DNA of 64,000 bases from Microbacterium sp. LWH7-1.2 (GTDB taxonomy: Bacteria; Actinomycetota; Actinomycetes; Actinomycetales; Microbacteriaceae), in assembly GCF_038397755.1 (NCBI RefSeq), contig NZ_CP151637.1:3038001-3102000 (forward strand). Reading direction: 5' to 3'. A program made the translations under genes and the position numbers. Numbering within the stretch: position 1 is the stretch's first letter; the number at the start of each line of letters is the position of its first letter. Shown here in pieces: positions 33,945 through 48,891 of this stretch. Under the pieces are notes generated by a model. The model ran no database searches. It was not told where the DNA came from and saw nothing but the letters and a program-made list of their open reading frames with translations.

Positions 33945-34040
33945 CGGTCGTTGAGCGAGCGAGGAACGAGCGAGTCGAAACGCCCCAGGCGTGCGAGATC
34001 GTCGGGCGCATTTCGACTCGCAGGCTCGCTCAACGACCGG
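33945..34040. repeat. Inverted pair of REP-like elements between E1 beta and E2
   Basis: Left arm begins CGGTCGTTGAGCGAGCGAGG and ends GAGTCGAAACG (to about 33982); the right arm is its inverted partner (from TTTCGACTCGC to CTCAACGACCG, 34011-34040). About 25 nt separate them. The same element occurs at 40235-40618 and 48767-48798. It could fold in the mRNA and alter E1:E2 expression. Confidence 0.8.
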
Positions 34041-35787: not shown

Positions 35788-36771
35788 ATGACCTCCCTGC
35801 GACGTTCCCTGCCTGCGCTCGGCCTGGCGGCAGCATCCGCCCTCGTCCTCGCCGGATGCGCGGGCACGGCCGCGGGTGATGACGCGGGCGACGGGAAGAT
35901 CGCGGTCGTCGCGTCGACCAACGTGTACGGCCAGATCGCCGAGGAGATCGGCGGCGACCTCGTCGACGTCACGTCGATCGTGTCGAACGAATCGCAGGAC
36001 CCGCACTCGTTCGAGCCGAGCGCGCGCGACCAGCTCGCCGTGTCGAAGGCCGACGTCGTCATCGAGAACGGCGGCGGTTACGACTCGTTCGTCGACGCGC
36101 TGATCGACTCCAGCGGCACCGAGGCGCCCGTCGTGACGGCGGTCGAGTACTCGCACGACTGGCCCGAGAACGCCGGCCACGACGAAGAGAGCGCGGGCGA
36201 CGCCGAAGACCACGCCCACGACCACGGCGACCACGACCACGTCGAGGGCTTCAACGAGCACGTCTGGTACGACCCGCACACCATCGCACACGTCGCGGAG
36301 GCCATCGCCCACGAGCTCGGCGAACTGCGCCCTGACGACGCCGAGACCTTCACCGCCAACGCCGAGGCGTTCGCCGCCGAGATCGCCGGCCTCGAGGCGT
36401 CGCTCGACGAGATCGGTGCGGCGCACGCCGGTGAGAAGGTCTTCGTCACCGAGCCGGTGCCGGTGTACCTCGTCGAGGCGGCCGGGCTCGAGAACGCGAC
36501 GCCCGCGAAGTTCAGCGAGGCTGTCGAGGAGGGGCAGGATGTCGCGCCCGCGACCCTGCTCGAATCCCTTGCGCTCGTGCAGGGCGGCGAGGTGAGCGTC
36601 GTGATCACGAACACTCAGACCGGCGGCGCCGAGACGCAGGAGATCGTCGACGAGGCGGACGGGCTCGGCATCCCGGTGATCGCGTTCTCGGAAACGCTGC
36701 CGGAGGGGCAGACTTACATCTCGTGGATGCAGGCGAACATCGAGGCGCTGAACGGAGCGCTCCAGGCGTGA
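35788..36771 (+). CDS. znuA: Zinc ABC transporter substrate-binding lipoprotein
   Basis: 327 residues. Lipoprotein signal with lipobox LVLAGC (Cys about residue 26). Cluster A-I metal-binding protein: VVASTNVYGQIAEEIGGDLVDVTSIVSNESQDPHSFEPS carries the first metal His. A His/Asp-rich loop (DHAHDHGDHDHVEG, about 145-158) precedes EHVWYDPHT. It captures zinc outside the membrane for ZnuBC. Start ATG 35788 follows a leaderless -10; earlier in-frame codons overlap the Zur box. First gene of the znuA-znuC-znuB-zur operon. Confidence 0.93.
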   Translation: MTSLRRSLPALGLAAASALVLAGCAGTAAGDDAGDGKIAVVASTNVYGQIAEEIGGDLVDVTSIVSNESQDPHSFEPSARDQLAVSKADVVIENGGGYDSFVDALIDSSGTEAPVVTAVEYSHDWPENAGHDEESAGDAEDHAHDHGDHDHVEGFNEHVWYDPHTIAHVAEAIAHELGELRPDDAETFTANAEAFAAEIAGLEASLDEIGAAHAGEKVFVTEPVPVYLVEAAGLENATPAKFSEAVEEGQDVAPATLLESLALVQGGEVSVVITNTQTGGAETQEIVDEADGLGIPVIAFSETLPEGQTYISWMQANIEALNGALQA

Positions 36772-38524: not shown

Positions 38525-38938
38525 ATGGCCCAGCGCAACACGTGGCAGCGCGAACGCGTGCGCGAAGCGCTGTCGGACGCCCGCGGATTCGTCAGCGCGC
38601 AGTCGCTGCACGCCACCCTGCGCGACGACAACACCGGCATCGGACTCGCCACCGTGTACCGCGCGCTCGCCGGGCTCGCCGCCCAGGGCGAGGCCGATTC
38701 CCTGCAGAGCCCCGAGGGCGAGGCGCTGTACCGCGCCTGCTCCAGCACCGGCCATCACCACCATCTGATCTGCCGCTCCTGCGGACTGACCGTCGAGATC
38801 GAGGCGACGGACGTCGAGCAGTGGGCCAAGCGCACCGCCGAGCGCCACGGATTCCGCGACGCCGAGCACGTCGTCGACATCTTCGGGCTCTGCGCGAACT
38901 GCGCCGCCGCCCGGGATGCCCAGCGTGACGCGAACTGA
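38525..38938 (+). CDS. zur: Fur family zinc uptake regulator
   Basis: 137 residues. Winged helix with QSLHATLRDDNTGIGLATVYRALAGLAAQGEAD (DNA recognition), then metal sites: TGHHHHLICRSCGLTVEIE (His-rich plus CxxC) and FGLCANCAAARD (second CxxC of the structural zinc). Zinc-bound repressor of zinc uptake genes. The palindrome at 35752 and the znu genes are the likely targets. Placement directly behind znuACB supports Zur rather than Fur or PerR. Confidence 0.9.
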   Translation: MAQRNTWQRERVREALSDARGFVSAQSLHATLRDDNTGIGLATVYRALAGLAAQGEADSLQSPEGEALYRACSSTGHHHHLICRSCGLTVEIEATDVEQWAKRTAERHGFRDAEHVVDIFGLCANCAAARDAQRDAN

Positions 38939-38981
38939 CCCCGGCACGCGGGCGCGCTCTTCGGAGCACCGCCACGGATCG

Positions 38982-39992
38982 ATGACGGATGCTGCGCCGC
39001 AGCCATCCGCGCAGGCGCGAACCCTGCTCTGGCTCGGTGTGGGTGTGGCCGTCGTCGGCGGCCTCTTCCTCATCGACTGGCTCGCGCCGAGCCTGTTCCC
39101 GGCATCCCTCCCCACCCGCGCGCAGGACGGGCTGACCCTCGCGATCAGCGTGCTCATCGAGTCGCTGCCCTTCGTGGCCCTCGGCGTGGTGCTGTCGATC
39201 GTCGTGCAGGTGTGGGTGCCCCCGGGCGTCATCGAGCGATGGATGCCGCGGCGCGGGTGGGCCCGACGCGCGGTGCTGTCCCTCCTCGGCATGATCGTGC
39301 CGGTGTGCGAATGCGGCAACGTGCCGTTCGCGCGCGGCCTCCTCATGCGCGGATTCTCGGTGCCCGAGACGCTGACGTTCCTCATCGCGGCGCCGATCGT
39401 GAACCCCATCGTCATCATCACGACGCACCAGGCGTTCGGCTTCAGTGACGGCATCCTCATCGCGCGCCTGCTCGGCGGGTACGCGATCGCGAACCTCATC
39501 GGATGGCTGTATTCGCGGCATCCGTCTCCCGACGCCCTGCTCACCGACCGCTTCCGCGACACGTGCGAGCTCGTGGTGCACGAGCCGGGCGGCAGGTGGC
39601 GGCGCACGCTCGCGCAGTTCGTGATCGAGCTGCGCGCGGTGATGCCGGCGCTCGTCATCGGCTCGGCGCTCGCCGGCGCGGTGCAGGTGCTCATCCCGCG
39701 CGAGGCGCTGCTCGCGATCGGCGCCAACCCGGCGCTGTCGATCGTCGCGATGATGGCCCTCGCGATGGTGGTGTCGATCTGCTCGAACGTCGACGCGTTC
39801 TTCGCGTTGTCGTTCGCCTCGACCTTCACGCCCGGGTCGATCGTCGCCTTCCTGCTGGTCGGACCGCTCGTCGACGTCAAGATGCTCGCGCTCATGCGCA
39901 CGACGTTCACATGGCGCACGCTCGGCGGCATCGTCGTGGTCGTCGTGCTGTCGGCCTTCGCGATCGGGACGGCGGTGAACCTCCTTGCGTAG
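38982..39992 (+). CDS. UPF0718/DUF318 family permease
   Basis: 336 residues, about eight to nine helices. The family signature MIVPVCECGNVPFARGLLMRGFSVPETLTFLIAAPIVNPIVIITT is intact, with a CECGN site. The second half repeats the pattern (SICSNVDAFFALSFASTFTPG). Members are permeases linked to metals or thiol compounds. It is followed by the TIGR03943-type partner, its usual companion. Start ATG 38982 is preferred; an in-frame ATG at 38916 overlaps zur. Probably part of the zinc regulon by position. Confidence 0.87.
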   Translation: MTDAAPQPSAQARTLLWLGVGVAVVGGLFLIDWLAPSLFPASLPTRAQDGLTLAISVLIESLPFVALGVVLSIVVQVWVPPGVIERWMPRRGWARRAVLSLLGMIVPVCECGNVPFARGLLMRGFSVPETLTFLIAAPIVNPIVIITTHQAFGFSDGILIARLLGGYAIANLIGWLYSRHPSPDALLTDRFRDTCELVVHEPGGRWRRTLAQFVIELRAVMPALVIGSALAGAVQVLIPREALLAIGANPALSIVAMMALAMVVSICSNVDAFFALSFASTFTPGSIVAFLLVGPLVDVKMLALMRTTFTWRTLGGIVVVVVLSAFAIGTAVNLLA

Positions 39993-41175
39993 GGCAGGTT
40001 TCGTCGGCACGCGGTGGCTCGGGGTCGGGCTCGCCGCGGCGCTCGCCGTCTTCACGCTCTCCCTCGCGGTGACCGGGCGGCTCGGGCTGTACATCAACCC
40101 CGACTCGACGTGGTTCGCGGTGTCGATGGCGGTGTTCCTGCTGATCGGCGCAGTGGCCTCGTTCGCGCTCCCGCTCGGGGCGGAGGCCGACCACGGCCAC
40201 GACCACGGGGACGAACGCGTCCCGCAGACCCGAGGCGTTTCGACTTCGGGCGCTGGCGCGCCCTTCGCTCAACGACCGGAACCCTTCACCCCGCTCATTG
40301 AGCGCGGTCGAGAGCAGGTTCCCACGCTCGTTGAGCGAGCGAGGTACGAGCGAGTCGAAACGCCTGAGCGCGTTCCCTCGTTCGTTGAGCGAGCGAGGTA
40401 CGAGCGAGTCGAAACGCCTGAGCAGGTTCCCTCGTTCGTTGAGCGAGCGAGGTACGAGCGAGTCGAAACGCCTGAGCAGGTTCCCTCGTTCGTTGAGCGA
40501 GCGAGGTACGAGCGAGTCGAAACGCCTGAGCGCGGTCGGGAGCACGACCACGAACGTGTCACGCAGGCCCAGCGCGTTTCGACTTCGGGCGCTGGCGCGC
40601 CCTTCGCTCAACGACCGGAGACTCTCACCCCGCTCGTCGAGCGCGATCACGACCACGACCACCACGCCCCGCACCCGCTCGCGGTCGCGGCCACGGTCGT
40701 CGGCGGGGTGGCGGCATCCGGGGTCGTCGTGCTGACCCTCGTGCTGCCCCCGGCCTCGCTGAGCGCGGAGCTCGCGATGTCGCGCGACGTGGGCGCGACG
40801 CCGTTGTTCGGCGGGGCCGACACGGTGCAGCTGGCCTCGACCGGCGACACCGCCTCCTTCGGCGTCGGCGAGTGGGCGACGGTGTTCGCGACGGCGACCA
40901 ATCCCGACGCGTTCGACGGCGAGACCGTCGAGCTCACGGGGTTCGTGACGCCGGGAGAGGGCGACGCCTTCGACCTCACGCGTCTGGTCATCACGCACTG
41001 CGTCATCGACGCGCAACCCGCGAGCCTGCCCGTCGTGAGCGACTCCGGCGCGCCCGACACCGGGCAGTGGGTCTCGATCACCGGCACCGTGCGCTCCTCG
41101 TCGGACGGGCAGCTCGTCGTCGACGCGGCCGCGGTCGAGGAGATCGCCGAGCCCGAGGACCCGTATGAGTACTGA
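39985..41175 (+). CDS. TIGR03943-type permease partner carrying an inserted REP array
   Basis: 396 residues, TTG start inside the upstream stop region (8-bp overlap). N-terminal two helices, then a His/Asp-rich loop (DHGHDHGDE), then the insertion at residues about 84-211, then DHDHDHHAPHP, a helix (about 230-255) and a beta-rich extracytoplasmic domain (ELTGFVTPGEGDAFDLTRLVITHCVIDAQP). The insertion contains four 18-residue repeats VERARYERVETPE-VPSF flanked by copies of VSTSGAGAPFAQRPE. All derive from the REP-like element. Without it the protein is about 268 residues, the usual family length. The frame is intact throughout. Confidence 0.85.
   Translation: MRRAGFVGTRWLGVGLAAALAVFTLSLAVTGRLGLYINPDSTWFAVSMAVFLLIGAVASFALPLGAEADHGHDHGDERVPQTRGVSTSGAGAPFAQRPEPFTPLIERGREQVPTLVERARYERVETPERVPSFVERARYERVETPEQVPSFVERARYERVETPEQVPSFVERARYERVETPERGREHDHERVTQAQRVSTSGAGAPFAQRPETLTPLVERDHDHDHHAPHPLAVAATVVGGVAASGVVVLTLVLPPASLSAELAMSRDVGATPLFGGADTVQLASTGDTASFGVGEWATVFATATNPDAFDGETVELTGFVTPGEGDAFDLTRLVITHCVIDAQPASLPVVSDSGAPDTGQWVSITGTVRSSSDGQLVVDAAAVEEIAEPEDPYEY
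40235..40279 (-). repeat. REP-like element, inverted copy 1 inside CDS
   Basis: 45-nt unit running GCGTTTCGAC...CAACGACCGG on the plus strand, that is, reverse orientation. Identical in length to 40574-40618. An internal GGGCGC/GCGCCC pair forms a small hairpin. Confidence 0.85.
40329..40526 (+). repeat. Four tandem 54-bp REP-like units inside CDS
   Basis: Starts at 40329, 40383, 40437 and 40491, period exactly 54 bp (18 codons). Each core is 36 nt from CGTTGAGCGA to CGAAACGCC, followed by an 18-nt linker. Unit sequence is nearly invariant, suggesting recent amplification. Confidence 0.9.
40574..40618 (-). repeat. REP-like element, inverted copy 2 inside CDS
   Basis: Matches the copy at 40235-40279 along its length, 339 bp (113 codons) downstream, and keeps the reading frame. 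Confidence 0.85.
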
Positions 41176-42586
41176 CCGGACCTCGCGTCGCTCGCGGTCC
41201 CGGCGTCGCCGGGGCCGCGCGTTCGTCGGGACCTTCGCGATCGTCGTCGGCCTGCTGGCCGTGTTCGGGCTCGCCGGAGCGGCCGCGAGCGTCGCGCAGG
41301 GGCCGCGGGTGACCCAGGCGTACGTGGATCCGGAGGCGGCGGCCGCGGCATCCGGGGCCCGTCTCATCGTGACCACCACGCAGTCGCTCGCCGGCGTCGA
41401 CCCGTCGCAGGTGACGATCACGCCCGCGACGCCGTTCGCCGTCGACACGTCGGGGCGCAGCGTCGGCGTGCGGTTCACCCTGCCGCTGTGGGACGACACG
41501 GAGTACACCGTGACCATCGACGATGTGGCCTCGCTCGGCGGCGGGCCGACCGCGACGATCACGCAGACCTTCCGCACGCCGGCGGCCGAGGTGTTCCTGA
41601 TGCAGCGCGGGACCAACGCCGGCGACCTCATCTACCGCACAGACCTCACCGGGCAGGATGCCGTGCCGGTGTTCCGGCACGCGCACATCGAGGACTTCCG
41701 GGCGACGGCCCAGCACCTCGTCGTCTCGGTGCGCACCGAAGACGACCGGGCCGGCCTCATCGTGACCGACCTCGACGGCGAGAACGCGCACGAGGTGCCG
41801 CTCCCGGGAGACGGATACGTGTCGAACTTGCAGACCGCCGACCGCGGTGAGCGCATCGGGTACACCTTCTCGGACGCCGAGCTCAGCGCCGACTCCGGCC
41901 GCGAGAGCCGGCTGTACACGGCGTCGCTGAGCGATCCCACCGCAGAACCGGTCGCGATCGAGGTCGAGGGCGCCGATCCTCGTGTCGCGGAGTGGCGGTT
42001 CGTGCCCGACACGGACAGCATCCTGCTCCTCTCGTTCGACGGCTCGCTGATGCTGACCGGATCGGAGAGCGCGAACGGTGCGCCGACCGCGCTCGGTGAC
42101 GCGATGACGATCGAGGGCATCGCGCGCGGCTCCAGCGAGGCCGTGGTCGACCGCCCCGACCGCGCGGCCGTCATCGACCTCACCGACGCGAGCGAAGAGC
42201 CGCTCGTCGCTTCCGACATCGACCTCGGGGGCACCACCTCGGTGACGCCGCTCCCCGACGGCTCCACCATCCGCACGGCGGCGGTGCTCGACGCCGACGG
42301 CGTGCCGACCGGGCGCACATCGGTCGCCCGCGTGGGCGCGGACGGCGCGGCGACCATGCTCACCGAGATCGCCGACACGGATGCCGTCATCCAGGTGTGC
42401 GTGTCGCCCAGCGCCCGATACCTCGCGGTGCTCGTGGCGCCTGACGCGGTGACGAACTCGTACGACACCTACCAGCACCCGCTGCCCGAGCGCCCCGAGA
42501 CGCGCATCCTCGAGGTGGCCGACGGCGATCCCGTCGTCGCCCTCAACGGCGCCTCGATCTCGTGGTGCCAGGTGCCCCCGCGTTGA
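41165..42586 (+). CDS. Membrane-anchored beta-propeller-like protein, function unknown
   Basis: 473 residues. One N-terminal helix (about 20-45) after a very basic tail, an Ig-like part (about 50-145) and then a WD40/TolB-like propeller repeat pattern with LVVSVRTEDDRAGLIVTDLDGENAHEV and DTDSILLLSFDGSLML. Overlaps the upstream gene by 11 bp, so it belongs to the permease/TIGR03943 operon. Extracytoplasmic location is inferred from the single helix. No enzymatic motif. Confidence 0.75.
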   Translation: MSTDRTSRRSRSRRRRGRAFVGTFAIVVGLLAVFGLAGAAASVAQGPRVTQAYVDPEAAAAASGARLIVTTTQSLAGVDPSQVTITPATPFAVDTSGRSVGVRFTLPLWDDTEYTVTIDDVASLGGGPTATITQTFRTPAAEVFLMQRGTNAGDLIYRTDLTGQDAVPVFRHAHIEDFRATAQHLVVSVRTEDDRAGLIVTDLDGENAHEVPLPGDGYVSNLQTADRGERIGYTFSDAELSADSGRESRLYTASLSDPTAEPVAIEVEGADPRVAEWRFVPDTDSILLLSFDGSLMLTGSESANGAPTALGDAMTIEGIARGSSEAVVDRPDRAAVIDLTDASEEPLVASDIDLGGTTSVTPLPDGSTIRTAAVLDADGVPTGRTSVARVGADGAATMLTEIADTDAVIQVCVSPSARYLAVLVAPDAVTNSYDTYQHPLPERPETRILEVADGDPVVALNGASISWCQVPPR

Positions 42587-42664: not shown

Positions 42665-43342
42665 ATGGCGCGGGACCTCTGGCGTGCGGCGACCCGCGCA
42701 GACCTGCAGGGCCTTCCGGCCGACGTCGCGCCCCGCCTGCTCGGGGCACGCCTGACGACGGTGGTCGAAGGCGAGACGGTGGCGGTGCGCCTGACGGAGG
42801 TCGAGGCGTACCACGGTCGCGGCACCGGGCCGGTGCCTGATCCGGGCTCGCACGCGCGCATGGGCCAGACCGCCCGCAACGCGACGATGTGGGGCGAACC
42901 CGGGCACCTGTACGTGTACCTCAGCCACGGCATCCACTCCTGCGTCAACGTCGTGTGCGGCCCCGACGGGGTCGCCGGCGGTGTGCTGCTGCGGGCGGGT
43001 CAGGTGATGGAGGGGACGGATGCTGCGACCCGCCGCCGACCGGCAGCCCGAACACCGCGCGACCTGGCTCGCGGGCCAGGCCGGTTCGGCGATGCGGTGG
43101 GACTGCGGCATCCGATGCACGACGGCATCGACGCGATCACCGGTGCGCCGCTGAACGGCGCGGTGGCCAGGCTCGAGCTGCTCGCCGACCCGCTCGCCGA
43201 GGTCGCGTCGGGGCCGCGCGTCGGCGTCGCGGGCGTGGCCGGGACCGCCGTGTTCCCGTGGCGGTACTGGATCCCGGGCGAGGAGACGGTGTCGCCGTTC
43301 CGCTGGGGGCGCGGCGCGCGCGAGGTCAGCGAAGCGACGTGA
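42665..43342 (+). CDS. 3-methyladenine/alkyladenine DNA glycosylase (AAG/MPG type)
   Basis: 225 residues. Base-excision repair enzyme. TEVEAYHGRGTGPVPDPGSHARMGQTARNATMWGEPGHLYVYLSHGIHSCVNVVC is the diagnostic AAG segment, with the catalytic Glu in VEAYH and the YVYLSHG motif. LRAGQVMEG follows. Cytoplasmic. The C-terminus overlaps that of the giant membrane gene by 17 bp on the opposite strand. Confidence 0.92.
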   Translation: MARDLWRAATRADLQGLPADVAPRLLGARLTTVVEGETVAVRLTEVEAYHGRGTGPVPDPGSHARMGQTARNATMWGEPGHLYVYLSHGIHSCVNVVCGPDGVAGGVLLRAGQVMEGTDAATRRRPAARTPRDLARGPGRFGDAVGLRHPMHDGIDAITGAPLNGAVARLELLADPLAEVASGPRVGVAGVAGTAVFPWRYWIPGEETVSPFRWGRGAREVSEAT

Positions 43343-46300
43343 CCGCGACGACGGTCGTGCGCAGCGCCTTCATGTTCTTCTCGTAGCGGGCGGCCATGAA
43401 GATGAGCAGCGCGCCGCCGAGGCCGAGCCACAGCCACCACGGCACCGCGACGTAGGCGGTCGAGATCCAGGGCCACAGCTGGGCGACCCCGTGCACGATC
43501 AGCACCGCGGACCCCATCAGGAGCGGCGCTTGGAGTCGGTAGACCGCCCCCACGACGACCATCGCGAGCGCCACGACGCCCAGCGACACGATGCGCCACA
43601 GCTCGGACTCGCCCAGCCAGGCCTCGTCCGCGGCGCCCGGGATCGCCGACCCGCCGAAGTCGTGCAATAGCGACGGCACCGTCAGCAGCGCGAGCCATGG
43701 GCCGAGCGTGGGCCATGTGCGCGACCGCGGTGCACGGCGCAGAGTGCGCACGCCGTACGCGATCCCGCCGAGGGCCGGCGGCACCGCGACGAGTTCGATG
43801 GGCCGGACGTCACCGACGGTGAGCGCCATGATGGCGAAGCCGGCGCCCGCGAGGGCGGCCGTGACCGGCAGGGCCAGGCCGAGCCGCGTGCGCGCGGCGG
43901 TGCCGACCACGGTGGCGGCGGTGAGTGCCGACATCACCGCCGCGGTGCGCAGCTCGTCGCCCGTCTGCTGCACGAGCAGCAGCGCCAGCTCGGCGAGGGC
44001 GAACAGCGCCGAGGCGACCGCGAAGCCCGCCCCGGCGGTGAGCCCGACGGCGCGCGACGGCGTCGCGCGGAGCGCCGCGAGCGCGACCGCGCCCGCGATC
44101 CCCGCGCCGGCGACCGCCCAGAGGTCGGGCTCGAGGCCGCCGGCGGGCGCCACCTCGAGGAACCGGATGCCGCACGCGACGACCGCGATGACGAGCCCGC
44201 CCACGGCGAGCACGCCGCCCAGCCGCGTCCAGCGGCGCAGGCCCAGCACCGAGGCGCCGGCCACACCGAGCACCCCCCCGATGACGGCGGTCACGGTCGT
44301 GAGCACGAGGTCGGCTTCGGAATGCGTGAGCGACATCGCGACGACCAGGGCGGCGCCGGCGCCGGCGAGGACGGCCGCCCCGCGGGCGGCGGCCGGTGCC
44401 GAGCCGCGTGCCGTCAGCAGGACCGCCACCGCGACGGCACCCAGGCCCACGAGGATGGCCACCGCGGCGTCACCTTCGAAGCCGGGCAGGACGAGCCCAC
44501 GCAGCCCCATCACGACCGCGGCGAGGCCGAGCAGCAGCGACGTCGGTGTGCGCAGCGTCCAGACGTCGACGAACATCGGGGTGCGGGGAGCGGGAGCGGC
44601 GACCGGGGCCGGCGCCGGAATGAAGACGGGCTCCGCATCGGCGGGAACGTCCCGCCCGGGTTCCCGGAGGGCGGCCGCTCCGCCCGCTGCCGCGAGGGTG
44701 AGTGCCACGTACGCCCAGATCCGCGCGGGTTCCGCCGCGACGAGGAGGCTCGGCGCGCCGGCGAGCACCAGTCCCACGATCCACGCCGGCCCCTCTGCAC
44801 CGGGCCATGCGGCGCCGGCCCGCCGCCGGCGGAGCATGCCGAGGACGGCGCCGACCAGGCACATCGCGGCGACGGGGAGCGACACCGCCTCGACCTCGGT
44901 CGCCGCGCCCAGGAACCAGCCCGCGACTCCCACGACGAAGGCGGCCGTGAGCGAGATCCAGCGGGTGGTGCCGGTCAGCGGCAGGCGGTTGAATCCTGCC
45001 GCGGAGAGGTGCAGCGCGGCGAGCATGATGAGCGTCCCGGCGACGATGCGCGGCTCGTCGGCGACCGGCACGATCGCGACGACCGCGGCGACGAGGGCCG
45101 CCGGGGGCACGATGAGCGCGTACAGGCCCGACGAGAGGCGGCTCGGCCGGGCGAGCGTCATGCCCCAGCCTGACGCGTACGCGACCGCGACCAGCAGCAC
45201 GAGCCAGAGCACCTGCGACCCCTGCCCCTCGAAGGCGCGCTCCACGGCGACGAGTCCGATCGCGATCACCGCCACCGCGGCGCCGAGCGCAGCGGCGGGA
45301 CGGATGCTGCGCACCGGCGTGAACGACAGCGCCAGGCACACCGCCACCGCGACGAGCGCGATGACCACGCCGCGCACCGGGTCCCCGGTCCATCCCTCGA
45401 CGGCGGGCGCCCAGAGGCCGAGGGCGAGACCGCCGGCCAGCGCGACGCTCGCCTCGGCGCGGCGGCGCAGCCGCACCAGGAGCGCCGCGAAGGCCACGAG
45501 CACGACGGCCGACGGCACCACGTACGACTCCACGGCGTCGTGCGTGCCGGGGGTTCCGGCGTCCAGCCACGACCACCACGCGACGATCGCCGCGACGACC
45601 GCCGGCCACGCCAGCAGGCGGCGCGGGGCGTCGAGGAGCGGCATCCCGTCCCGCTTCATCGCGAAGCGATCGTCGGCCGGGTCGGCTGAAGTCGTCCCCA
45701 CCCAGCCACGGGAGACGGATGCTGCGGCGAAGCCGAGGGCGACGAGCACGAGTGCGGCCCACGCGAGGAGGGGAGTCACCGGCCACACCACGACGAGCAC
45801 GGTGAGGGCTGGGCCGAGATCGGCGGCCAGGCGGCGCAGCACTGCGGCGCGTGGTCGCGGCGGTGCGGACGCGATGTCGGTCGGCCCCTGCGAAGCCGGC
45901 GCCGGCGGGGCGTCGTCGCCGGCGCGATGACGCAGGGCGGTGGCCGCCGAGACGAGCGGCACGACGACCGCGGCGGCGGTGAGGGCGAGCGGCGCCCAGT
46001 CCGCGTCGCGCAGGCCGACGGCGCCGAGCACGTCGTAGGTCGTCGCGGCCGCGACCGGCGCTGTCAGGGCAGCGGCCAGGATCGGGGGCACTCCGGTGAC
46101 GCGGGTGACGCCGAACGCGACGATCGCGAGTCCCGCGAGCAGGAGTGCGCCGCGCGCGATGCCGAGGCCGGGCTCGCCGATCGCGGTCAGCAGCGGGTTC
46201 GCGGGCGCACCGCTGCCCGGCGTCGTCACGGCCGTGAACGCGCCGATGAGGCTGAACGCCACGAGCACCTCGGCGGAGGCGGCCAGCGCGGTGCGGCTCG

Positions 46301-48500
46301 CGCGCTCCACCGGCAGCGCGAGCGCAGCGATCAGGGCCGCCAGGCCCACCCACTGCAGCAGCGCCGCGATGACCGGTCCCCCCGCGCCCGTCAGGCCCGT
46401 GACGGCAGCGAGGGCGCTCGGAGCGAAGATCGTCGACACCGCGGCGACGGCGACGGGTGCGACGGCCGCGGCGACCGCCGCGACGTCGGTCGGCCGCAGC
46501 ACCATCCCCAGGGCGATCGGGTACGCCATCGCGGCGGCGATTCCGACGAGCCACAGCCACGGGGTGGCCGCGCCGCCGACGTACGCGGTGACGGCGGCGA
46601 TCCCGCCGGCGACCAGGTACCCGACCGGGACTCCTCGCGCCGCGATGCCGGTGTCGGGATCGGGCTCGGCGAGGGCCGGGCCGCCGCGGCGGCGATCGCT
46701 GCTCCGGACGATCGCGACGACCGCGACCGCGACGATGACCAGCGCGACGGCGATGCCGACGAGGACGGCGGGCACCGCGGTGCGGGCGCCCGCGACCAGC
46801 AGGAGGATCGTCGCCACGATCGGAACGAGCCGGCGCGGCAGCGGGCGGGCGAGCGTGGGCGCGGCGAACAGCAGTCCCGCGATGAGCGCCGCGGAGATCA
46901 GCGCGAGTAGCGGCGCCTCCGGCGCCGCGGCGGGGAGGGCGAAGGGGTTCGTCCGCCACACCGTCCAGGAGGCGCCGATCGCGGTGACGGCCGTCATTGC
47001 CCAGCCGAGCACCACGACGACGATCGACAGCCCGCCGACGGTGGCGGAGGCGATCGCCGCAGGCAGCGACGCGGGGACCCCGCGGCGGCTCCGTACGACG
47101 TCGACGACGACGGCGACGAGCACGGCCAACACCGGTGCGACGAGCACGCCGTACAGGGGCAGCTCGCTGCGGAGGGCGAGCTGCCAGCCCGCCAGACCCG
47201 CTGCCGCCGTCGCGACGACCGAGCCGACCCCCGAGATCACGCCCGCCGCCGGCAGGGGTGCGCCGTCGACCGGGCGGTGCGCGAGCCGCGCGTGGGCGAT
47301 GCCGAGCACGACGAGCCCCATGCTGGACCAGATCACGACAGGCAGCGCATCCCAGGTCATGAAGGCCGCGGTGAGCCCCGCCGCCACCAGCGCCCCCACG
47401 CCGCTCAGCGAGAGCACGAGGCGCTCGGCGACGGCGTCGGCGCCGCGGCGCGCGGACGAGAGGGGTGCGGGGAGCGCGTGCACCAGGCCGCCGGCCGCGG
47501 CCCCGAGCAGGCCGGCCGTCAGCGCCTCGGCGGGCGGCAGCGACGTCAGGCCGCCCACGAGGAATCCGAGGCCCGCGGGCAGCGCGAGCGAGGCGGCGAG
47601 GTCGGGTCCGCGCAGGTGCGAGATCCGTGCCCACACGCGGCAGAGCACCGCGACGACGAGGGCGGACACCCCCGCGTACAGCGAGGCATCGGTCGACCCG
47701 GTGCCGAGCAGGTCGTTCGCTCGCACGGCCCACGCGTCGAGTGCGAGCAGTCCCACGCCGAGCACGCCGATCGCCTCGGCCGTCGCCCCCAAGTCGCGGC
47801 GGCGCAGCCACGACGCCAGCACGATGGTGGCGAGCGTGATGCCGCCGATGATGAGCGCCCGCACGGCGATGCCGGCGACGAACCACGCCAGCAGCAGGAA
47901 GAACACGGCGGCGACGCCGACCAGCGAGACCCCGACGATCAGCAGCAGCACCGGGACGGTCAGCCGGCGGCGGGGAGCGGATGCCGTCACCGCCGCGGGT
48001 GCGGACGACCCAGGGCGCTGAGGCACCGAGGCGGCGGGTGCGGGCGGTGCGGGCGGGCGCGGGGGCACCACGATCTCGGGTGCCATCCTCGTGGGAGCCG
48101 CGGTGGCGGACCCCTGTACGGTGACGAGCCCGATCGCGTCGGGTGTCGTGAGAGACGTCACGTTCGCGGGCCCGGCGGCGACCGTGACCGCGCCGGTCTC
48201 TGCCGCGACGGGAACGGGCGATGCGGCCAAGGTCGCGGGCGCAGCATCCGTCGTCGCCATGGCGGCCGTCACGTGCGCGAGGCGGATCGTGTCCATCAGC
48301 TGCTGGCGGGACAGCTCGAGCGTGAGCATCTGGCGGCCGAGCTCCAGGACGCGGGGCGCGCGCGGGTCGGTCAGCGCGAAGCCGCACGCCCCGCAGACCT
48401 GCGCCGTGACGGCGGTGAAGCACGACGGGCACCGGTGCGCGTCGGCGAGATCGAAGGGAGACGCGGGCCACAGGGGGCCGTCGTCGTGCGATTGGCTCAT
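43326..48500 (-). CDS. Giant polytopic membrane protein, SCO7613-like, with N-terminal zinc ribbon
   Basis: 1724 residues. N-terminal zinc ribbon CPSCFTAVTAQVCGACGFAL (about 24-43), a helix, a Pro/Ala-rich linker (about 150-195), then dozens of hydrophobic helices to the end (for example RLTVPVLLLIVGVSLVGVAAVFFLLLAWFVAG). This is the layout of the actinobacterial SCO7613 C-terminal domain family; its role is unknown. ATG 48500 has GGAGAGGGGATGAC upstream. The sheer number of helices in one chain is striking. Stop overlaps the DNA glycosylase gene. Confidence 0.85.
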   Translation of the reverse strand: MSQSHDDGPLWPASPFDLADAHRCPSCFTAVTAQVCGACGFALTDPRAPRVLELGRQMLTLELSRQQLMDTIRLAHVTAAMATTDAAPATLAASPVPVAAETGAVTVAAGPANVTSLTTPDAIGLVTVQGSATAAPTRMAPEIVVPPRPPAPPAPAASVPQRPGSSAPAAVTASAPRRRLTVPVLLLIVGVSLVGVAAVFFLLLAWFVAGIAVRALIIGGITLATIVLASWLRRRDLGATAEAIGVLGVGLLALDAWAVRANDLLGTGSTDASLYAGVSALVVAVLCRVWARISHLRGPDLAASLALPAGLGFLVGGLTSLPPAEALTAGLLGAAAGGLVHALPAPLSSARRGADAVAERLVLSLSGVGALVAAGLTAAFMTWDALPVVIWSSMGLVVLGIAHARLAHRPVDGAPLPAAGVISGVGSVVATAAAGLAGWQLALRSELPLYGVLVAPVLAVLVAVVVDVVRSRRGVPASLPAAIASATVGGLSIVVVVLGWAMTAVTAIGASWTVWRTNPFALPAAAPEAPLLALISAALIAGLLFAAPTLARPLPRRLVPIVATILLLVAGARTAVPAVLVGIAVALVIVAVAVVAIVRSSDRRRGGPALAEPDPDTGIAARGVPVGYLVAGGIAAVTAYVGGAATPWLWLVGIAAAMAYPIALGMVLRPTDVAAVAAAVAPVAVAAVSTIFAPSALAAVTGLTGAGGPVIAALLQWVGLAALIAALALPVERASRTALAASAEVLVAFSLIGAFTAVTTPGSGAPANPLLTAIGEPGLGIARGALLLAGLAIVAFGVTRVTGVPPILAAALTAPVAAATTYDVLGAVGLRDADWAPLALTAAAVVVPLVSAATALRHRAGDDAPPAPASQGPTDIASAPPRPRAAVLRRLAADLGPALTVLVVVWPVTPLLAWAALVLVALGFAAASVSRGWVGTTSADPADDRFAMKRDGMPLLDAPRRLLAWPAVVAAIVAWWSWLDAGTPGTHDAVESYVVPSAVVLVAFAALLVRLRRRAEASVALAGGLALGLWAPAVEGWTGDPVRGVVIALVAVAVCLALSFTPVRSIRPAAALGAAVAVIAIGLVAVERAFEGQGSQVLWLVLLVAVAYASGWGMTLARPSRLSSGLYALIVPPAALVAAVVAIVPVADEPRIVAGTLIMLAALHLSAAGFNRLPLTGTTRWISLTAAFVVGVAGWFLGAATEVEAVSLPVAAMCLVGAVLGMLRRRRAGAAWPGAEGPAWIVGLVLAGAPSLLVAAEPARIWAYVALTLAAAGGAAALREPGRDVPADAEPVFIPAPAPVAAPAPRTPMFVDVWTLRTPTSLLLGLAAVVMGLRGLVLPGFEGDAAVAILVGLGAVAVAVLLTARGSAPAAARGAAVLAGAGAALVVAMSLTHSEADLVLTTVTAVIGGVLGVAGASVLGLRRWTRLGGVLAVGGLVIAVVACGIRFLEVAPAGGLEPDLWAVAGAGIAGAVALAALRATPSRAVGLTAGAGFAVASALFALAELALLLVQQTGDELRTAAVMSALTAATVVGTAARTRLGLALPVTAALAGAGFAIMALTVGDVRPIELVAVPPALGGIAYGVRTLRRAPRSRTWPTLGPWLALLTVPSLLHDFGGSAIPGAADEAWLGESELWRIVSLGVVALAMVVVGAVYRLQAPLLMGSAVLIVHGVAQLWPWISTAYVAVPWWLWLGLGGALLIFMAARYEKNMKALRTTVVAVTSLR

Positions 48501-48724
48501 GTCATCCCCTCTCCGGGATTGACGACATGGTCCAGGAGGATCCGCCGCGCGCGCGAGAATTTGTGGACAGGCACAGGCCTCTCGGCGCCCCAGGCGGCTC
48601 GCATTGGACCACTTGCTAGGAGAGATTCCTGCCCCGGAATATAGCGGTGCTCGCACGGATCGCCCCGCAACCTCGACGCGTGAGGCGGAACCGGGCCGCG
48701 TCAAGTCCGACACGCCGTCCGTGC

Positions 48725-48730
48725 TAGACT
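48725..48730 (+). promoter_or_regulatory. Putative -10 of the ribosomal protein operon
   Basis: TAGACT; would give a leader of about 155 nt containing the REP-like element. The -35 is weak. Confidence 0.35.
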
Positions 48731-48766
48731 GACTCTTTGTCTGCGCGCCTCCAGCACGCAGTACGT

Positions 48767-48798
48767 GTTTCGACTCGCTTCGCTCGTTCAACGACCGG
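48767..48798 (-). repeat. Single REP-like element in the rpmB leader
   Basis: Reverse-oriented copy (GTTTCGACTCGCTTCGCTCG then TTCAACGACCGG), same family as 33945-34040 and 40235-40618. Confidence 0.8.
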
Positions 48799-48891
48799 AA
48801 GATTCCGGGCGGTGGCGGCGCATGCATCGAGATGCAGACAAGGGATCTTGGGTGAGGCCGTCCGGCCCCACGGTACTAAGGAGACATCACT

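Follow-up and report, generated by a model that had tools for sequence, protein, structure and literature searches.

Different families of small repeats occupy one hypervariable loop of a TIGR03943-type membrane protein in Microbacterium

Results

The window analyzed here, a 64,000-nucleotide stretch of the Microbacterium sp. LWH7-1.2 genome, contains a gene (39985..41175, + strand) whose reading frame is intact from a TTG start at 39985 to a stop codon ending at 41175 and encodes a protein of 396 aa. The protein matches the curated TIGR03943 model with 116.8 bits (cut-off 88.8) and the DUF1980 domain models PF21537 and PF09323 with 42.4 and 34.9 bits, respectively (cut-off 25.9 each), which places it in the TIGR03943/DUF1980 family of the B. 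subtilis YcgQ type. Its start overlaps the end of a gene (38916..39992, + strand) that encodes an ArsP_1-type permease (PF03773, 190 bits), the typical partner of TIGR03943/DUF1980 genes. Genes for a FUR-family regulator and an ABC ATPase lie nearby, and because of these neighbors a role in metal handling is predicted for the TIGR03943 protein. The pairs ycgR/ycgQ and scfA/scfB are named in the available text of PMC5584981, which describes ycgR and ycgQ as uncharacterized. The downstream gene (41165-42586, + strand, 473 aa) has no NCBIfam match and only a weak Pfam match to Big_5, and directly upstream of the ABC ATPase gene there are His/Asp-rich tandem codon repeats (36166-36245) containing no listed element.

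An AlphaFold2 model of the 396-aa protein, weak overall (mean pLDDT 62, pTM 0.39), has membrane helices at residues 4-29, 39-61, and 231-253 and a C-terminal β domain whose best match among solved structures is 8aas_C (E 3.5e-4), presumably an OB-type chain. Given the helix count, the loop between the second and third helices (TM2-TM3) is probably cytoplasmic; the insert that it holds has no predicted structure in the model and is predicted to be disordered. Against L061 (Microbacterium sp. Leaf288), the nearest relative without the insert, dN/dS of the window gene is ~0.12 upstream of the loop and 0.06 downstream (60 codons compared), and the flanks also give low values against the relatives L063, L064, and L067. 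The flanks of the loop are therefore under purifying selection. The long protein is probably made and working.

Six copies of a short element, here called family A (GTTTCGACT...GCTCAACGA), lie in the TM2-TM3 loop. The pattern GTTTCGACTN{6,30}GCTCAACGA, composed after inspection of the sequence, matches seven times in the window, six times in the gene and once at 33948-33981, and not once in 100 dinucleotide shuffles; the six repeat copies inside an open frame, which the original prediction had reported, are thus confirmed. Two identical 39-bp forms on the + strand (40237..40275, read as VSTSGAGAPFAQR, and 40576..40614), 339 bp apart, bracket a 54-bp tandem array (40312..40531, + strand; 4.1 copies, 96% matches, units such as EQVPSFVERARYERVETP). 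Each of the four array units contains a 34-bp form on the - strand (40328..40361, 40382..40415, 40436..40469, and 40490..40523); units 3 and 4 are exactly identical, and the remaining units differ by 2-4 bases. The 39-bp copies are each part of a 128-nt stretch on the + strand (40189..40316 and 40528..40655, ~80% alike), the first consisting of His-rich codons plus the element. Two family A copies, one of them the strict match at 33948-33981 and found together by pattern and degenerate matches, lie between genes at 33945..34040, bearing out the claim that the element is also intergenic in the window. A further degenerate copy (48767-48798) is found at the upstream end of a - strand ORF (43326-48827), the true start of which may lie further in.

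A chance or miscalled frame is excluded by the absence of pattern matches in the 100 shuffles and by the family domains on either side of the insert, and a miscalled frame is also opposed by the mostly synonymous changes in the flanks. A 574-codon antisense frame (39907-41631) that runs through the array was rejected, the family matches sitting on the + strand instead. Spacings between elements of the same type in the gene (54, 54, 54, and 339) are all multiples of 3, as the prediction had said, but this is not special to the gene and is weak as proof of selection, since 19 of 49 spacings elsewhere in the host genome stretches (coding cases excluded) are likewise multiples of 3, approximately the chance level. 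The spacer of the 54-bp unit is absent elsewhere in ~281 kb of the host genome, where the element core is present, and the array therefore most likely grew in place. At the site of the window's four units, the relative protein P0001 has one 13-letter repeat unit followed by VSTSGARAPFAQRP, which suggests that the copy number of the array is possibly variable.

The host genome, a single contig of 4.446 Mb, contains 131 family A copies (60 forward and 71 reverse), many of them clustered, and no copies of the reversed pattern used as a control. Positions for 100 of the 131 copies were among the matches listed. The element resembles REP/BIME sequences in its high copy number, occurrence in both orientations, and mostly extragenic location. 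However, single units are not imperfect palindromes of the REP kind: six sequences folded as DNA gave z values of -1.66 to +0.77, so that they are not strong hairpins, and the 39-bp form has a central stem of 6 bp. The Y1 transposase (Y1_Tnp, PF01797; RAYT) was not found in 10 genomes, in a search whose control matched in 5 of 14 known genomes, and no RAYT link was found for family A. No target-site duplication or mobilizer was identified for family A elements. With units that fold no better than shuffles and no Y1 transposase in the 10 genomes, the element departs from REP sequences in two defining respects, and its likeness to REP/BIME is one of distribution; the predicted label "REP-like" holds for dispersion and mixed orientation but not for fold.

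Family A clusters numbering 45 (117 elements in 26 stretches) were examined, of which 4 lie inside genes supported by domain models, a biased rate because three of the 26 stretches (L164-L166) had been picked for translations resembling the loop. The four carriers are the TIGR03943 gene, an Lhr-type helicase, CydD, and a GH95 enzyme. The helicase (L156:246-5210, + strand) has a 27-bp copy at residues 1043-1051, between two winged-helix domains. In the CydD-type ABC exporter (L165:2266-4149; G000 C1 4172765-4174648, - strand; 511.4 bits vs. a cut-off of 435), the linker that joins the membrane and ATPase parts contains the repeats in frame, and the alignment with relatives breaks at ~353-420. 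The GH95 enzyme (L166:837-3650; G000 C1 3560836-3563649, - strand) has repeats of a 13-letter peptide in its N-terminal part, and its relatives align over ~69-201 and then from 254-260 on, the break falling at the family A repeats. Further candidate frames (L149, L162, L150, and L152) were left out of the count: protein family scans of the first three found no family, and in L152 the copies sit close to the C terminus of a frame that has Wzz and ParA-type domains. The claim that an extragenic repeat has been turned into protein is thus supported by the dispersion of the element, by the 4 of 45 clusters in genes, and by the existence of insert-free orthologs.

The reading frames of the captured copies are skewed. 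Copies on the + strand read VS../VAS.. in the window, L068, L071, L085, L129, and CydD, and copies on the - strand read VER.. in the window, L067, L071, L129, CydD, and GH95, but those of L085 and Lhr read S.SE... Selection on the peptide, the phase of insertion, or common descent may account for this, and the skew to VS../VER.., recurring in CydD and GH95, could count against plain tolerance. The captured peptide might be useful, tuning the length or charge of a metal-binding cytoplasmic loop, with frames and families selected at the protein level; the favored, charged VERAR.ERVET frames, shared with CydD and GH95, and the maintenance of His-rich ends around the inserts are what this would lead one to expect. 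We regard it as very unlikely all the same, since inserts are entirely different or absent in near relatives, the insert has no predicted structure, and the differences among array units 1-4 are, in translation, all amino-acid-changing.

The gene is present in all 35 Microbacterium genomes searched, and none of 23 genomes from outside the genus gave a match at E 0.001. One record among the Microbacterium rows, L100, is titled Planococcus sp. APC 4015 and is probably mislabeled or contaminated. The 120 closest proteins listed have a hypervariable loop between ...LPLGAEADHGHDHG and the third membrane helix, and at up to 372 aa all of these proteins are shorter than the window protein. Under one loop definition, the loop has 185 residues in the window and 43 in L061, so that the ~128 added residues first estimated become 142. 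Elements of seven sequence families are carried in the loop by 16 of 78 related genes, and none are found elsewhere in the gene. That all homologs might share the same insertion, which was to have told against the prediction, is not what is seen: neighboring rows in the tree of the gene carry other families or none, and close relatives thus have differently filled and empty loops. The presence of several repeat families in this loop across the genus, like the in-frame copies in other proteins of the host genome, goes beyond what had been predicted. A group of rows with a 35-residue loop (L108-L138, M. testaceum group) has similar HGHAP...ARREAFAHADH... sequences and no listed element; two genomes of this group were counted and have zero family A copies.

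In 1,594,384 bp around the gene (81 loci), 75 elements were detected, 25 of them in loops amounting to 8,139 bp. For family A, 14 of 41 elements are inside loops (six genomes), and only this figure is near a fair enrichment because the queries for families B to G were derived from loops, as was part of the family A query set. Outside the loop there are 42 clusters, 4 of them flagged as possibly coding, and for family A 20 clusters, 1 so flagged, the flag being a codon-score rule and not proof. Four genes were dropped before further work on the loop (L031, the window's own copy; L090 and L091, without an end anchor; and L094, in which no frame was found), leaving 107, and for BLAST and frame counts 14 of these with loops shorter than 6 residues were also dropped, leaving 93. 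In a BLAST comparison of loops with masked flanks, 38 of the 93 loops matched, compared with 2 C-terminal pieces and 5 shuffles (93 of each); we did not take this as the main count, since His/Asp codon repeats make up many of the matches.

His-rich stretches are retained at the ends of filled loops, a pattern expected if the His/Asp codon repeats of the loop (CACGAC) were a preferred DNA target or recombination site. We consider this improbable: in CydD, GH95, and Lhr the copies lie outside His-rich stretches, and among the 42 non-loop clusters one of the 4 flagged as possibly coding (L100 3126-3204, a doubtful match) has a His-rich reading. A regulatory mRNA hairpin needed in the operon and supplied by different repeats was likewise considered. 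In a folding test of 51 loops (loops shorter than 60 nt and repeats dropped), filled loops are on average more stably folded than shuffles (mean z -2.44, median -1.7, 5/16 below -2), but loops without a listed element have a mean z of -0.05 (n = 35, 3/35 below -2), showing no excess RNA structure, and the loop lacks a listed element in 80 of the 96 rows of the protein tree described below. A functional RNA hairpin is thus unsupported, and we give it hardly any credence.

The loop DNA of relatives sorts into unrelated groups, A to G. Family A is the window element, family B is an 84-bp imperfect palindrome, and families C and D have inverted arms. Copies outside the gene were found for five families (A, B, D, F, and G), which account for 12 of the 16 filled genes; because 40 candidates per genome were scored, the outside-gene counts are lower bounds, and within these same searches no copies of families C and E were found outside the loop. 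Family B is found outside the gene in several genomes, among them each of the three that have B in the loop, family G in G019 and G062, family D in one further copy, and family F as 21 short matches outside loops. Family E may not be a single family, because neither the L068 nor the L099 genome matched the E piece of L080. A family B palindrome of G058 (M. ureisolvens HU12; element 2506-2586) is part of the open frame for a helicase-like protein (L175:688-3531, + strand), outside its model-matched part.

A protein tree was built without the loop (96 rows after removal of 11 identical ones, 247 columns) by a quick method that left 37 of 93 inner branches open. On this tree, the family labels together require 14 changes (A 6, B 3, C 2, E 2), and filled vs. 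not filled requires 8. In one starred clade, 13 of 18 rows are filled (A 6, B 3, C 2, E 1, G 1), and the window gene and its nearest rows L063, L064, and L061 (support 94, not starred) hold A, B, G, and nothing. More than one independent capture is the likely history, but the number of captures is uncertain, given the relatedness of the rows and the many open forks of this quickly built tree.

We also weighed a single ancestral family A insertion that was kept, homogenized to each genome's form by gene conversion, and lost or replaced in some lines. Consistent with this, the window protein, L068, and P0003 share DER(V/A)...GV.S.GA.AP.AQRPG right after HDHG in the same frame, and the + copy frames agree in all five family A loops that have one. 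On the other side, 3 of the 6 changes needed by family A are forced by starred branches, the - copy of L085 is in a different frame (SSSERGSSETRR), the subtype in the L129 loop is frequent among the copies listed for that genome, and near relatives have B and G in place of A. A single ancestral insertion is therefore, in our judgment, a possible but rather unlikely history.

Family A load was counted as ACT- plus TCT-type copies in 21 genomes, 17 from the 18-row clade (its member L080 was left out) and four from outside it. Those that carry family A in the loop rank exactly first to sixth among the 21: L071 (279), L085 (251), L067 (178), the window genome (132), L129 (112), and L068 (108). The other genomes have at most 93 copies (L069 93, L061 66, L066 61, then 45, 29, 25, 7, 4, 3, 1, and five zeros). 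The chance of this order is 1.8e-5 if the rows were unrelated, but they are related, and draft assemblies may undercount repeats. The presence of family A in the loop thus tracks its genomic copy number. Sequence variants agree: loop copies in the window genome are of the ACT type, with a genome-wide ACT:TCT ratio of 131:1, and loop copies in the other five family A genomes read TCT, like most copies in those genomes. The exception is two L129 loop copies that read CCT, the subtype ...CTCCTTCGTCGCTCCGCTCAACGA listed often for the L129 genome.

Discussion

We think it probable, with appreciable doubt, that the TM2-TM3 loop is a disordered, length-tolerant, His-rich linker that has repeatedly caught small dispersed repeats. 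Repeat families abundant in the genome of a lineage would insert at many places, and most intragenic copies would be lost by breaking proteins, but those landing in the TM2-TM3 loop in an open frame would be tolerated. Such copies could then expand in tandem in place, as the four 54-bp units of the window suggest, and could later be lost or displaced by other families. Here we infer both the mode of repeat movement and tolerance rather than benefit. A bolder reading is that the loop serves across the genus as a catch-site, a record of the repeat families active now or formerly in each lineage, and that its refilling by insertion, tandem growth, and loss is exploited to remodel a metal-related membrane protein more quickly than point mutation would allow; this we hold to be decidedly doubtful.

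The closest known system appears to be the Rickettsia palindromic elements (RPE), a comparison made from descriptions and not implying sequence kinship. According to the available parts of PMC2229807 and PMC10969869, RPE are small repeats found between genes and in frame inside conserved proteins, and they likewise comprise several families, ten in one Rickettsia species (PMC10969869); an RPE-bearing Gmk has been shown to be translated and active (PMC2229807). A dispersed repeat in frame in conserved genes and absent from orthologs is what is found here in the TIGR03943 gene, CydD, and GH95. However, RPE as described there are ~105-150 bp, palindromic, and present in many unrelated genes, whereas the family A unit measures 27-39 bp without being a strong palindrome, and here one orthologous loop holds several families in step with genomic load, a shared site not described for RPE in those texts. 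REP/BIME sequences with RAYT transposases, as far as the available text of PMC2817692 describes them, are similar in exceeding 100 copies per genome and in forming clusters in both orientations, but no Y1 transposase was found in 10 genomes and the family A units fold no better than shuffles. The enterobacterial MITEs ERIC/RU-1, YPAL/RU-2, and RU-3 also have repeat frames fused in frame to host genes, but they are longer (103-168 bp) and occur in other bacteria, and the accessible portions of PMC2229807 and PMC2759123 describe no recurrent site common to the families.

In-frame capture of small repeats has been described chiefly in Rickettsia and enterobacteria, going by what is available of the reviews PMC2229807 and PMC10969869. 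Among the literature matches listed (titles and abstract beginnings), no paper dealt with the family A element or with this loop in Microbacterium. In-frame capture is thus known from Rickettsia, and the single site, the several families, and the relation to load are new as far as our searches tell.

The TIGR03943 loop is an unusually clear case of normally noncoding repeats becoming protein sequence. A practical caution is that loops of the TIGR03943 protein in Microbacterium genomes can be repeat-derived. With one loop, different families in different species, and a relation to genomic load, the system offers natural replicates for following the fate of repeats that become protein, and the loop may read out which small repeats were active in Actinobacteria in which no REP transposase is found.
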